A stretch of DNA of 64,000 nt from Candidatus Pelagibacter communis (GTDB lineage Bacteria; Pseudomonadota; Alphaproteobacteria; Pelagibacterales; Pelagibacteraceae), in the NCBI RefSeq assembly GCF_012932795.1, contig NZ_LANA01000001.1, forward strand, positions 262,642 to 326,641. Reading direction: 5' to 3'. How positions within the stretch are numbered: the stretch's first letter is position 1; each line of letters opens with the position of its first letter. Below are positions 18,873 to 24,588 of this stretch, piece by piece. The position numbers were made by a program, and so were the translations under genes. The notes beneath the pieces are model-generated. The model had not been told where the DNA came from, ran no database searches, and saw only the letters and a list, made by a program, of their open reading frames with translations.

Positions 18873-19739
18873 ATGTCATTGCTTAAAGAAGATGAATTAA
18901 TAAATATTTTACCTAAAGACGGTCCAACAGTTGAAGAAGTAAAAAAATATCTAAAAAAATACAATAATGAATTTATTGTCATTAAGTGTGGTGGCAGTGT
19001 TTTAGTTGATCCAGAATTATTTAAAATTTTTATTGAAGATGTTGCTGTTTTAAACAAACTTGGATTTAATCCCATAGTTATCCACGGTGGTGGAAAAAGG
19101 ATAAATAACAAACTAGATGAGCTTAATATTAAAAGTGATTTTATTAATGGACTAAGAGTTACAGATAAAAATATTATTAACGTAGTTGAAGATGTATTGA
19201 TTGAATTTAATAAGGAAATTGTCGATGCCTTAAAGGATCAGTCTTGTGAAACAAGAAGAATTACCTCAAAAGAATATAATATAATAACTGTAAAACCTGA
19301 AAGTGATAAGTTAGGTTTTGTAGGTACCCCCACTTACATTAAAACTGATGTTTTAAAAAAAATTATTAAACATAATAAAGTACCTGTTATTGCACCACTA
19401 GGGTTAGGTGAAAACGATCAAACTTTCAATATCAATGCAGATACAGTTGCTGGTTCAGTGGCTAAAGAATTAAAAGCTAGAAGATTAATGATTATCAGCG
19501 ATGTAGAGGGTGTACTAGATAATAAAAAAAAACTAATACCCGAAATTAACTCAAAAAAAGCTAATGAACTAATCAATCAAGATATTATATCTGGTGGAAT
19601 GATACCTAAAATCAAAAATTGTTTAGATGTTGCAAGTAATGGAGTTAGAGGAGTGGTTATAATTGATGGTAGAAAAAATCACTCACTTCTATTTGAACTA
19701 TTATCTGATAAAGGTTCTGGGACTTTGATTAGAGAATGA
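18873..19739 (+). CDS. argB: Acetylglutamate kinase
   Basis: Second step of arginine synthesis, phosphorylating N-acetylglutamate with ATP. The 288 residues show VIKCGGSVL (about 33-41), VIHGGGKRINN (69-79), the DTVAGSVAKELKA nucleotide/substrate segment and an IDGRKNHSLLFELLSDKGSGTLI end typical of the family. It touches yidC and overlaps the HAD gene by 4 bases (ATGA). An N-terminal helix of about 25 residues before the kinase core suggests the hexameric, arginine-sensitive form (inference). Confidence 0.97.
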   Translation: MSLLKEDELINILPKDGPTVEEVKKYLKKYNNEFIVIKCGGSVLVDPELFKIFIEDVAVLNKLGFNPIVIHGGGKRINNKLDELNIKSDFINGLRVTDKNIINVVEDVLIEFNKEIVDALKDQSCETRRITSKEYNIITVKPESDKLGFVGTPTYIKTDVLKKIIKHNKVPVIAPLGLGENDQTFNINADTVAGSVAKELKARRLMIISDVEGVLDNKKKLIPEINSKKANELINQDIISGGMIPKIKNCLDVASNGVRGVVIIDGRKNHSLLFELLSDKGSGTLIRE

Positions 19740-20413
19740 AAAATTTAATTGCTATAAAATACTGGATTTTTGATCTTGATAACACTCTTTACAGTGGTCA
19801 AACAAAAGTTTTTTCAGAAGTTGATAAAAAAATGTCTTCTTTTATTTCAAAGAAATTTAATATAGATTTAGTTAAAGCAAAAGAAATTCAAAAAAAATAC
19901 TTCTATGAGTATGGAACAACATTATCAGGGTTGATGAATCATGATAAAATTGATCCACATGAGTTTCTTGAATTTGTTCATGATATAGATATTAGCTGGC
20001 TTCCAAAAGATAAAATATTGAGAGAAGAGCTGATTAAAATTAAAGAAAAAAAATATATTTTCACGAACGGCTCTCATGCTCATGTTAAAAATGTGACTAA
20101 ACAACTTGGTATAGATGATTTATTTGATGGAGCATTTGACATTGTTGACTCTAATTTTATACCTAAACCAAAAATTGATCCTTATAAAAAAATCATCGAA
20201 AAATTTGATTTAGAACCAGCAAAATCAATATTAATTGAGGATATTGCTCATAATTTAGAGCAAGCTAAAAACCTGGGAATGAAAACTTGTTGGCTTGAGA
20301 ATAATGAAACATTTGCAAAAAAAGATGCTGATAAACCTTATATTGATTATAAAATTAAGAGCTTGCCTTCTTTTCTTCAAGAAATTAATATATTAAAAGC
20401 TCAACAAAATTAA
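19736..20413 (+). CDS. HAD-superfamily hydrolase, pyrimidine 5'-nucleotidase type
   Basis: Cytoplasmic phosphatase of the SDT1/pyrimidine 5'-nucleotidase group. The 225 residues have motif I FDLDNTLYSG (12-21, nucleophile D13 and acid D15), motif II FTNGS (about 104-108), motif III lysine in FIPKPKIDPYKKI and motif IV IEDIAHNLEQAK. A C1 helical cap lies between motifs I and II. It overlaps argB by 4 bases and precedes dapD by 22; the argB-HAD-dapD order is conserved in many alphaproteobacteria. The physiological substrate is not known. Confidence 0.88.
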   Translation: MKNLIAIKYWIFDLDNTLYSGQTKVFSEVDKKMSSFISKKFNIDLVKAKEIQKKYFYEYGTTLSGLMNHDKIDPHEFLEFVHDIDISWLPKDKILREELIKIKEKKYIFTNGSHAHVKNVTKQLGIDDLFDGAFDIVDSNFIPKPKIDPYKKIIEKFDLEPAKSILIEDIAHNLEQAKNLGMKTCWLENNETFAKKDADKPYIDYKIKSLPSFLQEINILKAQQN

Positions 20414-20435: not shown

Positions 20436-21263
20436 ATGAAAGAATTTGAAAATATTATCAACAAAGCTTGGGATAATAAAGACTCAATCAATGGACAATC
20501 TGATAAATCTATATTGGATGCAATTAACCAAACGATTGAACTTGTTGATAAAGGTGAACTAAGAGTCGCTGAAAAAAATAAAAACGATTGGATAGTTAAT
20601 CAATGGGTTAAAAAAGCAATAGTGTTAAGCTTTAGAACTCATGAGATGGACTCATTGGGTGGCCCTTATAGTAGTTGGTATGATAAATCTCATTTACTTA
20701 AAGGTAAAACTTCAGGCTGGACTAAGGAAGATCATATAAAAGCTGGCTTTAGAATGGTTCCAAATTCTCCAGTTAGAAAAGGGTCTTTCATTGGAAAGAA
20801 TGTGGTACTAATGCCTTGCTTTGTAAATATTGGCGCTTATGTGGATGAAGGAACTATGGTGGACACTTGGGCTTCAGTTGGATCATGCGCACAAATTGGA
20901 AAGAACTGTCACATATCAGGAGGTGCTGGAATTGGAGGTGTATTGGAGCCAATGCAAGCTAACCCTACAATCATTGAAGATAACTGTTTTATTGGAGCTC
21001 GTTCAGAAATAGTTGAGGGAGTAATTGTTGGAGAAGGATCTGTATTATCTATGGGTGTGTTTATTGGTCAATCTACAAAAATTGTTTACAGAGAAACTGG
21101 TGAAGTACTTCATGGAAAAATTCCACCATACTCAGTAATAGTTCCGGGTAGCCTTCCAAGTAAAGATGGCAAAGGTCCAGCTTTATATTGTGCAGTAATT
21201 ATTAAACAAGTTGATGAAAAAACTAGATCTAAAACTTCTATTAACGATCTATTGAGAGCCTAA
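20436..21263 (+). CDS. dapD: Tetrahydrodipicolinate N-succinyltransferase
   Basis: Succinyl-CoA-dependent step of the succinylase branch to meso-DAP and lysine. The 275 residues include an N-terminal helical domain and the left-handed beta-helix of hexapeptide repeats from about 105 to 215, with [36 protein letters not shown] and [10 protein letters not shown]. The C-terminal [18 protein letters not shown] matches the family. dapE starts directly after its stop. Confidence 0.98.
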
Positions 21264-22421
21264 ATGCCAATTTACAATGAAATCACATTAGCTAAAGAGC
21301 TAATAAGATTTCCAAGCATCACACCAATTGATGCTGGAGTAATGAAGTTCTTAGCTAAAAAATTAACTGCTATTGGATTTAAATGTAAGATTTTAGAGTT
21401 TAAAGATAAAAATTCTAAACCAGTTAAAAACCTATATGCAAGATTAGGTAATGCTCAACCAAACTTTATGTTTGCTGGCCACTTAGATGTGGTATCTCCA
21501 GGAAACATAAAAGATTGGACCATTAAGCCTTTTAGTCCTGCTATTAAAAAAAATCACCTAATTGGCAGAGGTGCCAATGATATGAAAAGTGCAATAGCAA
21601 GCTGGGTGGTTGCCGTAAATAATTTTGTGTCAAAAAACAAAAAAGTTAAAGGTTCTATTAGCTTGTTAATTACTGGTGATGAAGAAGGTGTCGCAATCAA
21701 TGGTACTAAAAAAGTAGTTGATTACTTAAAAAAGAAAAAAGAAAAAATAGATTTTTGTTTAGTTGGTGAGCCAACAAATCCCAGTAAACTTGGTGAAATG
21801 ATTAAAATTGGTAGAAGAGGAAGCATGAATGCCGAACTAACTATAATTGGAACTCAAGGACATGTCGCATATCCTCATCGTGCCAAAAATCCATCTACTA
21901 CATTAATAAAAATACTAAATGAAATAAAACAAATAAAATTTGATAAAGGAACAAAAGATTTTCAACCAACAAATTTAGAAGTAACTAAAATTAATATTGA
22001 TAATATAGCTGATAATATTATTCCAGGACTTGCAAAAGCTAAATTTAATATAAGATTTAACAATAAACACAAGTCTTCAAACTTAAAGAGTAGATTAAAT
22101 AAAGTTTTTAAAAAAATAACCAAAAAAGATAAATCTAATTTTAAAGTAGAATTTCGTGTATCAGGCGAAGCTTTTTTAACTAAGCCTAATAACACAACTT
22201 ATATGATTCAAAATGTAATAAAAAAAATTACAAAAATTAAACCAAAATTATCCACAACAGGTGGTACTTCGGATGCAAGATTTATTAGAAAGATTGCTCC
22301 GTGTTTAGAATTTGGTCTAGTAGGTAAAACAATGCACAAGATTGATGAAGCAGTATCTGTTTCCGATCTAAAAAAAATAACTAAAATATATTATAGTATT
22401 TTAGAAAATTATTTTAAATGA
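21264..22421 (+). CDS. dapE: Succinyl-diaminopimelate desuccinylase
   Basis: Zinc peptidase-family M20 enzyme that releases LL-DAP from N-succinyl-LL-DAP. The 385 residues show metal-site motifs AGHLDVV (71-77, H73 and D75), GRGANDMKS with the bridging Asp, TGDEEG with the catalytic Glu, and LVGEPT. The dimer lid domain (about 180-300) is Lys-rich. GGTSDARF near the end is conserved. Its last 4 bases overlap the start of the deacetylase gene (ATGA), a direct translational link. Confidence 0.96.
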   Translation: MPIYNEITLAKELIRFPSITPIDAGVMKFLAKKLTAIGFKCKILEFKDKNSKPVKNLYARLGNAQPNFMFAGHLDVVSPGNIKDWTIKPFSPAIKKNHLIGRGANDMKSAIASWVVAVNNFVSKNKKVKGSISLLITGDEEGVAINGTKKVVDYLKKKKEKIDFCLVGEPTNPSKLGEMIKIGRRGSMNAELTIIGTQGHVAYPHRAKNPSTTLIKILNEIKQIKFDKGTKDFQPTNLEVTKINIDNIADNIIPGLAKAKFNIRFNNKHKSSNLKSRLNKVFKKITKKDKSNFKVEFRVSGEAFLTKPNNTTYMIQNVIKKITKIKPKLSTTGGTSDARFIRKIAPCLEFGLVGKTMHKIDEAVSVSDLKKITKIYYSILENYFK

Positions 22422-23347
22422 AAACTGGTTTAATAACCTCTGATACTTATCAAAATCATAATACAGGTGATGGTCATCCAGAAAAAATTGATAGAGTTAA
22501 AGTAGTTATCGATAATTTTAAAAAGTTAGGTAGTAAAGATTTAGTTTGGAAAAAGCCCTCAAAATTTGATCGATCAGTTTTGGAGTTAACTCACAATTCT
22601 GATTATATAAATTTTGTTGAAAAATCTTTTCCAAAGAAGGGATTGTCTTTTTTAGACGGTGATACAGTTGTTTCTCCAGGAAGTAAGGAAGCTACATCAG
22701 ATGCTGTAGGATCAATCATTACTGCTATTGATGGTGTTCAAAATAATGAATTCAAAAATGCCTTTTGTGCAGTTAGACCTCCAGGGCATCATGCTGAAAA
22801 AAATAAGGCTATGGGTTTTTGTATTTATAATAATGTTGCCGTTGGAGCTAATTATTTAATAAATAAATATAAACTTAGTAAAATTGCTATTATTGATTTT
22901 GATGTTCACCACGGAAATGGGACACAAGATATTTTTAATGACAATGAAAAAGTTTTATACATTTCAACTCATCAATTCCCTTTTTACCCAGGCTCTGGCA
23001 CAGAACAAGAAAAAGGTAAATATAACAATATATTTAATATCCCATTACCAGCTGGCACAACCTCTGAAGAGTATTTAAATGCTTATACATTTGTACTTAA
23101 AAAAATAGAGGAGTTTAAACCTGAATTTATATTACTATCAGCGGGTTTTGATGCTCATAAAAATGATCCCCTGGCTCAATTTCAACTTGAAAGCAAAGAT
23201 TTTTATAAAATCACAAAAAGAACTTTAGAAATATCTAAATTATATTGTAACGGTAAAGTTGTTTCAATTTTGGAAGGTGGTTACGACCTCAATGCACTTA
23301 AAGAGAGTACAACGATGCATGTCAAAGCTTTGCTAGAATTTAATTGA
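22418..23347 (+). CDS. Histone-deacetylase-family zinc deacetylase
   Basis: Arginase-fold amide hydrolase of the HDAC/AcuC/acetylpolyamine amidohydrolase superfamily. The 309 residues keep the whole active site: RPPGHHAE (120-127) with the His pair H124-H125, zinc ligands D162 and H164 in DFDVHHGNGTQ, zinc ligand D245 in SAGFDAHKNDPLA, and EGGY with catalytic Y289. It resembles class II HDACs. The substrate could be acetyl-lysine, acetylpolyamines or another amide; nothing in the sequence decides. It is coupled to dapE by a 4-base overlap and followed after 31 bases by the SET gene. Confidence 0.92.
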   Translation: MKTGLITSDTYQNHNTGDGHPEKIDRVKVVIDNFKKLGSKDLVWKKPSKFDRSVLELTHNSDYINFVEKSFPKKGLSFLDGDTVVSPGSKEATSDAVGSIITAIDGVQNNEFKNAFCAVRPPGHHAEKNKAMGFCIYNNVAVGANYLINKYKLSKIAIIDFDVHHGNGTQDIFNDNEKVLYISTHQFPFYPGSGTEQEKGKYNNIFNIPLPAGTTSEEYLNAYTFVLKKIEEFKPEFILLSAGFDAHKNDPLAQFQLESKDFYKITKRTLEISKLYCNGKVVSILEGGYDLNALKESTTMHVKALLEFN

Positions 23348-23378
23348 TAATTTTTTAATAGGTATTAAATAAACTATT

Positions 23379-23858
23379 ATGAAACCTTACAGAATTAATA
23401 AATCGAATATTGATAAAAAAGGTCGTGGTCTTTACGCGACTAGAGATATTAAAGATGGAGAAAGAATTATTGACTATATTGGAAAAATTATTACTAAAAA
23501 ACAGACTGAAGATTCTAAAAAATTTGATAATGCAAAACCAATTTATTTATTTAACTTAAATAAAAAATATGATCTTGATGGTGATGTATCATGGAATACT
23601 GCTCGTTTGATTAATCATTCTTGTTCTAATAACTGTGATTATAACGGCATAGGACTAAAATTATGGGTAATTGCAAAACAAGATATTAAAAAAGGTGAAG
23701 AGCTTACTTGTGATTATGGTTTTGGTTTTGATGAAGATTATAAACAATTTCCGTGTAAGTGTCGTTCTAAAAACTGTTGTGGCTATATTGTACGTGCTGA
23801 GTCAAGATGGCGTATTAATAAAAAATTTAGTATCAGCCGACAGCAACCTAATAAATAA
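23379..23858 (+). CDS. SET-domain protein-lysine methyltransferase
   Basis: Single SET domain of 159 residues with all diagnostic elements: GRGLYA (15-20), RLINHSCSNNC (76-86) forming the pseudoknot and SAM site, EELTCDYGF (107-115), and a compact post-SET zinc motif C126-x-C128-x4-C133. These are the elements of an active SAM-dependent lysine methyltransferase. No signal peptide or other domain. Bacteria have no histones, so a ribosomal or DNA-binding protein is a likely target (inference). It shares 11 bases with the convergent truA gene. Confidence 0.92.
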   Translation: MKPYRINKSNIDKKGRGLYATRDIKDGERIIDYIGKIITKKQTEDSKKFDNAKPIYLFNLNKKYDLDGDVSWNTARLINHSCSNNCDYNGIGLKLWVIAKQDIKKGEELTCDYGFGFDEDYKQFPCKCRSKNCCGYIVRAESRWRINKKFSISRQQPNK

Positions 23859-24588
23859 CTTTTTCTAAAAATAATCCTTCTGCAGGCGCAGGTGGTGCAC
23901 AAAGTGTTCTTTTCTTTGATTTAAAAACAAAATCAAACTTTTTTATATTCCATTTTTTTTCAGCTAAATATTTTAAACAACCAACCATTGATCTCACTTG
24001 TTGCTGCAAAAATGACTGGGATTTAAATTGTATTTCAATTCTTCCTCTAATTGATCTTATTTTTACTGATTTCATAGTTCGAATTGGACTTTTGGCATTA
24101 CAACTTGAAGATCTAAATGTTGAAAAGTCTTTAGTACCTAAAAATTTTTTTGCCCCTTTTTTCATTAATAAGATATCTAGTTTTTTAATTATGTGCCATC
24201 CTCTTCCTTTTTCTAAAGAAGGCCTGCTCAACCTATTAAAAATTACATACTTATAAATTCTTTGTTTTGCAGAAAACCTAGCATGAAAATTTAAATTTCT
24301 TTTTTTTATCTTTGATATTGAAACATTCATATTGTTTAGAAAGTGATTTATTGATTTTAAAAATTTATCTAGATTTTGAATTTTATTTTTACATTCAAAA
24401 TGAGCTGATTGTTCCACAGCATGAACACCCGCATCTGTTCTACCCGATCCAACTAATATTATTTTTTCTTTTAAAAGTTTAGATAATTTTTTTTGAATTA
24501 ATTTTTGAACAGATTTTCCTTTAGATTGAATTTGCCATCCTACAAAATTTGTTCCAACATACTCAATTAGAATTTGATATCTATGCAT
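23848..24588 (-). CDS. truA: tRNA pseudouridine synthase A (positions 38-40)
   Basis: Makes pseudouridine at 38-40 in the anticodon arm. The 246 residues contain the catalytic GSGRTDAGVHA (48-57, D52) and RSFLQQQVRSM-like text near the end (SFLQQQVRSMVG). The start ATG overlaps the fmt end by 8 bases. Order def-fmt-truA is common in alphaproteobacteria. The 3' end overlaps the SET gene by 11 bases on the other strand. Confidence 0.97.
   Translation of the reverse strand: MHRYQILIEYVGTNFVGWQIQSKGKSVQKLIQKKLSKLLKEKIILVGSGRTDAGVHAVEQSAHFECKNKIQNLDKFLKSINHFLNNMNVSISKIKKRNLNFHARFSAKQRIYKYVIFNRLSRPSLEKGRGWHIIKKLDILLMKKGAKKFLGTKDFSTFRSSSCNAKSPIRTMKSVKIRSIRGRIEIQFKSQSFLQQQVRSMVGCLKYLAEKKWNIKKFDFVFKSKKRTLCAPPAPAEGLFLEKVIY

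Follow-up and report, generated by a model that had tools for sequence, protein, structure and literature searches.

A deacetylase gene and a SET-domain gene side by side in Candidatus Pelagibacter: probably two separate lysine-acting enzymes, with a possible translational bypass in relatives

SAR11 bacteria are among the most abundant cell groups in the sea, and a 64,000-nucleotide stretch from one of them, Candidatus Pelagibacter communis (contig NZ_LANA01000001.1, positions 262,642 to 326,641 of the forward strand; hereafter the window, from a genome of 1.28 Mb that is 99% complete), carries a histone deacetylase (HDAC)-like gene directly followed by a gene for a SET-domain protein. The question raised by this locus is whether the two products act together as a single lysine-modification system or work apart. 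Our analysis favours, with a probability of about 0.6, two separate lysine-acting enzymes whose genes close a run of lysine-biosynthesis genes at its 3' end, one an LdaA-like deacetylase and the other a KMT2/SET1-like methyltransferase. In six relatives the deacetylase gene is interrupted by a short insert.

Gene identification and active-site conservation

The features at the centre of the analysis are as follows.

22418..23347, + strand: predicted class II HDAC-like zinc lysine deacetylase, 309 amino acids (open reading frame; PF00850; nearest solved structures 5ji5, 5zmp and HDAC6 by sequence and fold)
22775..22792, + strand: codons for R120-P-P-G-H-H125, the catalytic histidine pair and the RPP motif of robust deacetylases (read from sequence; uninterrupted in the window, insert site in six relatives)
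23379..23858, + strand: SET-domain protein with post-SET cysteines, 159 amino acids, KMT2/SET1-like (open reading frame; PF00856; PDB profile search)

The first-pass annotation had described two side-by-side genes, 31 bases apart, with intact active-site residues. Exact open reading frames separated by a gap of that length were recovered, and the motifs proved invariant in 13 deacetylase and 27 SET homologues, indicating that both are real conserved genes. The deacetylase matched the full Hist_deacetyl profile of Pfam (PF00850; E 3.5e-94), its zinc deacylase catalytic set (H124, H125, D162, H164, D245, Y289) was complete, and RPPGHH (R120-H125), D162, H164, D245, D250-P251-L252 and EGGY (Y289) did not vary across the 13 aligned homologues. 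The 159-residue protein matched the full SET profile (PF00856; E 4.4e-24) and possessed the SET core motifs together with the post-SET CxCx4C cysteines; NHSC (79-82), DYG (112-114) and the post-SET residues C126, C128 and C133 were the same in all 27 homologues.

Gene order in SAR11 and other proteobacteria

Gene order was surveyed in 147 genomes of the order, keeping the best match per genome and leaving out weak second deacetylase paralogues. Within the genus Pelagibacter the deacetylase and SET genes were adjacent on one strand in 71 of 76 genomes, including two (G042 and G141) with an interrupted deacetylase. The five genus genomes without adjacency comprised two with the genes apart, one with the deacetylase only, and two lacking SET and having a weak deacetylase paralogue. 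Adjacent pairs were found in 2/10, 0/2, 0/2, 0/3 and 0/1 genomes of other genera of the family and in none of the 53 genomes of a second SAR11 family, 34 of which hold both genes. Overall, 73 of 147 genomes had the genes adjacent (73 of the 119 holding both), and the gap was 2-39 bases in all 73 pairs. Among 80 named Pelagibacter loci the deacetylase was followed by SET in 76, the remaining four being cut short. Co-conservation across SAR11, the check proposed by the first-pass annotation, was thus borne out within the genus (71/76) and failed in the second family, where 0/34 genomes with both genes had them adjacent. The pair is a lineage-specific arrangement, a gene order conserved in one genus and part of another.

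In the window the pair forms the 3' end of a gene run in the order argB-HAD-dapD-dapE-deacetylase-SET. The neighbouring genes are listed below.

18873..19739, + strand: argB-like amino acid kinase, upstream (open reading frame; PF00696; the name argB is our reading of the amino acid kinase match)
19736..20413, + strand: HAD-family hydrolase-like open reading frame, upstream (open reading frame; HAD family presumed by recognition)
20436..21263, + strand: dapD, tetrahydrodipicolinate N-succinyltransferase (open reading frame; PF14805)
21264..22421, + strand: dapE-like M20 peptidase (open reading frame; PF01546; the name dapE is our reading of the M20 peptidase match)
23848..24588, - strand: truA, tRNA pseudouridine synthase, convergent (open reading frame; PF01416)

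The stop of the dapE-like gene and the start of the deacetylase gene share four bases (ATGA), and truA extends into the SET gene at its 3' end.

Each gene was also found with other neighbours. A close deacetylase (61-68% identical) lay behind dapE in all seven loci examined that lack an adjacent SET gene (G017, G034, G084, G001, G007, G009, G096); in G017 and G084 the SET gene stood beside truA and the deacetylase elsewhere behind dapE. In one sister genus, eight of ten genomes possessed SET together with only a more distant (47-50%) deacetylase on another contig, one of these having been read at neighbourhood level. SET was located near a TrhO/UPF0176 rhodanese gene in all 18 second-family SAR11 genomes read (L078, L218-L234), and in 16 genomes with both genes on one contig the two were about 58-76 kb apart.

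Among 289 alphaproteobacteria, 180 had a deacetylase match and 23 a SET match, three of the latter being SAR11. Sixteen of the 20 non-SAR11 genomes with SET also had a listed deacetylase, and in none of the 16 were the two adjacent (best match per genome). Around 20 further proteobacterial SET genes no deacetylase was detected (tblastn, E 1e-5, 9-18 kb read around each). Of the 82 genomes present in both the deacetylase and the xseB match listings, 70 had the deacetylase on the same strand as xseB and no more than 3 kb away, and 63 no more than 500 bases away. In a tree of 30 deacetylases the dapE-linked SAR11 forms (support 99/98) grouped with the xseB-linked ones, and a second SAR11 paralogue stood far from both (100/100). 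This can be interpreted as the window gene being the SAR11 form of a single-domain class II HDAC-like protein that is xseB-linked in most other alphaproteobacteria. As a side observation, two Pelagibacter genomes (G000, G003) had no xseB (Exonuc_VII_S) match, which was found in 275 of the 289 alphaproteobacterial genomes.

The first-pass annotation had proposed one lysine-modification system; under such a reading the deacetylase would free lysines on an abundant nucleoid or ribosomal protein and SET would then methylate them. The same-strand adjacency in 71/76 genus and 2/10 sister-genus genomes, with its short gaps, speaks for such a system, as does protein lysine being the predicted target of both enzymes. 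Against it, either gene can be found alone or accompanied by just a more distant partner, linkage was absent in the second family (0/34), in other alphaproteobacteria (0/16) and at the wider proteobacterial SET loci (0/20), and two Pelagibacter genomes keep the genes apart, with the deacetylase behind dapE and SET beside truA. As the linkage fails outside the genus and part of a sister genus, and the neighbours elsewhere differ, we consider one joint system unlikely and no longer treat it as the leading explanation. In the reading as two separate enzymes, the SET gene would have arrived at its present position in a shared ancestor of Pelagibacter and one sister genus, both genes would be co-transcribed with the dap genes, and their adjacency would entail no joint function.

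Deacetylase relatives and candidate substrates

The best solved sequence relatives of the deacetylase were HDAC6, 5ji5 and 5zmp, and the best fold matches of its structural model (predicted local distance difference test, pLDDT, 80) were 5ji5, HDAC4, 5zmp and HDAC6 (Foldseek). The Burkholderia phymatum HDAC-superfamily protein 5ji5, the lysine deacylase 5zmp and HDAC6 were full-length best matches by both sequence and fold; they come from other organisms at 36, 34 and about 30% identity, respectively, and the title of 5ji5 names no function. The enzyme is predicted to remove acetyl groups from protein lysines by way of a zinc-bound water, His124/His125 and Tyr289.

In bacterial deacylases the foot-pocket motifs RPPXHH and EGGY are described as marks of robust deacetylases, and PEG or PIS as marks of polyamine enzymes (Graf et al. 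2024, PMC11532494). RPPGHH and EGGY were present in all 25 non-paralogue members (window included) of the 30-deacetylase tree set. The window triplet is P-L-A (DPLAQF), neither the Glu gatekeeper (PEG) nor PIS, with Leu replacing the polyamine Glu; DPL was found in 22 of the 25, the other three not fitting the search pattern. Acetylpolyamine amidohydrolases and HDAC10 have the fold, RPPGHH and EGGY in common with the window protein, which differs in lacking the Glu gatekeeper or PIS triplet and resembles them more weakly: the acetylpolyamine amidohydrolase 9gkz was the lowest-scoring of the 60 best chains (141.5 bits versus 262 for 5ji5). Grouping with acetylpolyamine hydrolases, named by the first-pass annotation as an outcome that would undo its proposal, did not occur, as judged from the motifs, the DPL triplet, the 9gkz score and the tree.

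A small-molecule substrate, acetylpolyamine or another amide, in place of protein is quite unlikely on this evidence. Bacterial HDAC-fold enzymes do include polyamine deacetylases and amide hydrolases (PMC11532494), and polyamines are reported to be taken up and made by SAR11 (PMC8437039, PMC9992855). The DPL residues, set against PEG in HDAC10 and PIS in bacterial polyamine enzymes, and the low rank of 9gkz argue the other way, and spermidine acetyltransferase is reported as absent from two SAR11 strains (PMC8437039), which weakens the polyamine explanation further.

PX4GK is the acetylation motif of acyl-CoA synthetases, and three proteins of the window genome with the C-terminal domain of AMP-forming synthetases (AMP-binding_C) carry it, as PKTRSGK in two and PKTSTGK in one. 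LdaA of Rhodopseudomonas palustris is described as deacetylating Acs, PrpE, FcsA, HcsA and others (Crosby et al., as covered in the review PMC6640162). Like the window protein, LdaA is an alphaproteobacterial zinc-dependent HDAC-family enzyme, and acyl-CoA synthetases with PX4GK, such as LdaA deacetylates, are present in the window genome. Because of these targets and the PX4GK proteins in the genome, acyl-CoA synthetases are the best substrate guess, and by analogy with LdaA the deacetylase likely targets the three proteins, where it would act on the catalytic PX4GK lysines. The window genome yielded a single PF00850 match and no SIR2 (sirtuin) match in a search that was positive in 10 of 14 control genomes, so that this would be the only HDAC- or sirtuin-type deacetylase found there. 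If this is true, the enzyme offers a simple handle on the control of acyl-CoA synthesis in a streamlined cell. Many SAR11 genomes also have a second HDAC-like gene; the five that were read (L273-L277) have GGGY and lack the RPP motif.

SET protein relatives and predicted activity

A profile built from 11 SAR11 and marine homologues gave 188 PDB matches, of which the 60 best were all histone-lysine methyltransferases, KMT2/SET1 first, including one chain named only HRX-like cDNA. The window protein shares with the KMT2/SET1 enzymes the SET core, NHSC and the post-SET CxCx4C, and differs in being a stand-alone protein of 159 amino acids; by its sequence it is a putative stand-alone KMT2/SET1-like protein-lysine methyltransferase. 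SET genes are described in free-living bacteria (PMC3980110).

The nearest named relatives of SET were Candidatus Pelagibacter and other SAR11 records with up to 91% identity, in agreement with the SAR11 origin presumed by the first-pass annotation. The 79 compared were taken from the best 80 of 568 matches and are hence close kin. The residue directly before DYG was Cys in 74 and Ala in five of them, and NHSCxPN read NHxCxN, with Asn for Pro, in all 79. SAR11 and marine sequences outside this clade, including those of Pelagibacter G017, G084 and G141, had Tyr before DYG together with Pro, and G042 had Cys with Pro. In eukaryotic SET enzymes the residue before DYG tunes mono- versus trimethylation. 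The Cys or Ala before DYG and the Asn for Pro suggest altered product specificity in the SET proteins of the window clade.

Protein-lysine activity of SET is not certain, because BurB, a small bacterial SET protein, methylates methionine. SAR11 handles DMSP (dimethylsulfoniopropionate), and this general background favours methylation of a small molecule in the manner of BurB. That possibility, which draws on BurB of Burkholderia thailandensis, a 172-residue stand-alone SET protein converting methionine to S-methylmethionine toward DMSP (PMC12542666), is unlikely, as the SAR11 protein has post-SET cysteines and matches histone methyltransferases best, and as the BurB entries 9L4T/9L4V were not among the 60 best of the 188 profile matches, which is not a full test. 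If the lysine reading is right, the SET gene is an open case of bacterial protein methylation.

A number of observations weigh against the reading of two separate enzymes or against parts of it. Of the 73 genus genomes with both genes, 71 keep the linkage, and linkage as tight as 2-39 bases could reflect selection for co-expression; some genomes of the order are incomplete, so single absences are soft. One genome (G107) breaks the dapE rule, having SET directly behind dapE and a more distant deacetylase beside an lpxB-like gene. The structure prediction for SET was weak (AlphaFold with 27 close homologues, pLDDT 37). The window deacetylase lies behind dapE and not beside xseB, the context of the LdaA gene itself, and its presumed kinship to LdaA is through the tree grouping with xseB-linked alphaproteobacterial forms. 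A Pat-type acetyltransferase was not identified in the window genome, in a search that did not extend to GNAT proteins, and the sole ATP-grasp_5 match (36.6 bits, above the cut-off) fell in a 388-amino-acid frame that presumably encodes another enzyme.

Kinship of SET to Legionella effectors was also considered and set aside: the only NCBIfam match, AnkI/LegAS4, scored 34.7 bits against a cut-off of 550, which reflects the shared SET domain alone. A scan of viral contigs with the SET protein found no relative. Two alphaproteobacterial SET proteins (L086, L087) have a long Lys/Ala-rich, histone-H1-like N-terminal tail, and in G017 and G084 a very lysine-rich open reading frame (MKKKKKK...; L063:10210-10501, L066:1-402), a conceivable methylation substrate, lies a few kb from SET.

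Interrupted deacetylase genes in Pelagibacter

The order-wide search recovered the deacetylase in two pieces in G042 and G141 (2/76 genus genomes), and reading of the DNA showed both genes to be split exactly between the RPP codons and the GHH codons. When 265 genus genomes were searched by sequence pattern, the insert turned up in G141, G720, G906 and G768; a match with one mismatch in G828 stood in another sequence context and was set aside as unrelated. A covariance model run on 270 genus genomes returned the same four and a diverged copy in G772, two extra hits being the same hairpins on the opposite strand, and reported no insert at any other site (stricter filters, 19 candidates scored per listed genome). 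At least six species of the genus thus have an interrupted locus, namely L067:5598-6600 (G042), L279 (G141), L280 (G906), L282 (G720), L283 (G768) and L379 (G772), and in all six the order is dapE, deacetylase halves, SET. The presence of the insert at one site in six assemblies makes an assembly error unlikely. The window gene itself has no insert.

The insert measures 44 nucleotides in five species and 46 in G772, always begins with GGG, and is followed by GGA CAT CA(C/T). The five inserts other than that of G772 form a 14-pair hairpin in which 14/14 pairs are kept (100% of 70 cells paired); three of the pairs show changes in both partners and another three in one partner; pairing fell to 39-56% when the partner was slid. 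Of 500 shuffle controls, 1 attained the real values for pairing, covariation score and doubly changed cells, 178 did so for doubly changed pairs and all 500 for pair types. As the five inserts represent two lineages, few events underlie the covariation. Two inserts gave fold z values of -3.6 and -4.4 against shuffles, and the G772 hairpin has a different stem sequence and a similar shape. For four of the six insert loci, a comparison with Rfam at E up to 1 yielded no match, and the element was in none of the 18 and 73 stretches returned by two short-pattern scans of viral contigs.

In a tree of the second half, five of the six insert species grouped together (87/45; 95/62 in another tree) beside the intact L177. 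A single clade of all six, a group named before the tree was made, was rejected (approximately unbiased test, p-AU 0.002), which points to the insert having been gained two or more times at one site, or gained once and then lost in some lines. Given this repeated gain or loss, the insert may be a site-specific mobile bypassing element.

Coding status of the interrupted genes and comparison with T4 gene 60

Ratios of non-synonymous to synonymous substitution (dN/dS) were calculated for five species, G772 being left out, with 57 codons from the first ATG used for the first half. In the insert-sharing lineages the first half gave 0.058-0.173 and the second 0.056-0.167; intact deacetylase genes gave 0.028-0.072 at higher divergence. 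Both halves of the interrupted genes in these five species are under purifying selection, which may be somewhat weaker than that on the intact genes. Equivalents of both His residues, D162, H164, D245 and Y289 were kept in all six interrupted deacetylases; next to the zinc site, Phe replaces a conserved Gly in G042 and G906, and G772 has DCHF for DVHH. Across the nine codons from the insert to the next ATG, pairwise comparisons showed 0-4 synonymous and 0-1 amino-acid changes.

In five of the six species, all but G042, the exit frame offers no ATG, GTG or TTG from its last stop up to GHH, so in these five a protein started within the second half would lack the catalytic His pair. UAG, as the third codon following CCT, closes the entry frame in five of the six, and in four of these five the exit frame is also stopped inside the insert. 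With stops in both frames, the halves are not joinable by a single frameshift in four of the six; of the two exceptions, G042 has an open exit frame, and G772 has an entry frame open for 19 codons, where a late +1 shift could join the halves. The remaining options are ribosome skipping, removal of the insert from RNA, or recent repeated gene death, and the dN/dS values argue against gene death.

Pro-Pro before Gly is a known stalling context. The known model for skipping is T4 gene 60, with a GGA take-off codon, UAG, a hairpin, a 50-nucleotide gap and a GGA landing codon; bypassing is also described in yeast mitochondria, and likely cases in Streptomyces phages are named, as is a report from Prevotella without follow-up (PMC11194080, PMC5009743). 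The six relatives have in common with gene 60 a coding gap, a take-off-side hairpin and Gly codons at both edges; a nearby UAG is present in five of them and absent from the sixth. They differ in having GGG then GGA (both Gly) in place of identical GGA codons, one sense codon before UAG (in those five) in place of a stop directly after take-off, and a gap of 41-43 nucleotides in place of 50, and they concern a bacterial gene. In the mechanism proposed, the ribosome would stall at Pro-Pro-Gly and the hairpin, leave the Gly codon, skip 41-43 nucleotides and land on the next Gly codon. That bypassing of the T4 gene 60 kind takes place in a chromosomal deacetylase gene of these six cellular relatives is a proposition we regard as evenly balanced.

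Among the part of the full-text matches that was listed, no paper dealt with both translational bypassing and SAR11 or Pelagibacter, and a bypassing element in SAR11 is likely new in print. If confirmed, this would be an uncommon case of programmed translational bypassing in a conserved enzyme of a cell, and the six relatives would provide a natural series of diverged bypass signals.

SET relatives in phosphate islands

SET relatives were also found inside pst/pho islands in G001, G176, G403 and G306 (L070, L215, L216, L217), and the flexible phosphate islands described for HIMB59 list a SET methyltransferase (PMC10734472). In two 1.4-Mb genomes whose island fits that description, the island SET is homologous to the window protein at 47-48% identity; it differs in lying among pst/pho, metallophosphoesterase and glycosyltransferase genes without an adjoining deacetylase. 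The flanks of the 80 named Pelagibacter loci (up to 10 kb per side) gave no match to pst/pho, metallophosphoesterase or glycosyltransferase genes, so that a phosphate function, suggested by the island relatives, was not extended to the window SET. PhoB/PhoR-like matches near seven of the 20 wider SET genes were 22-32% identical and may be any two-component system. In L215-L217 the island SET lies next to a metallophosphoesterase and glycosyltransferase pair, which we read as resembling lipid-remodelling genes, and the SET neighbours in G007 (L072) are presumably phosphonate genes.

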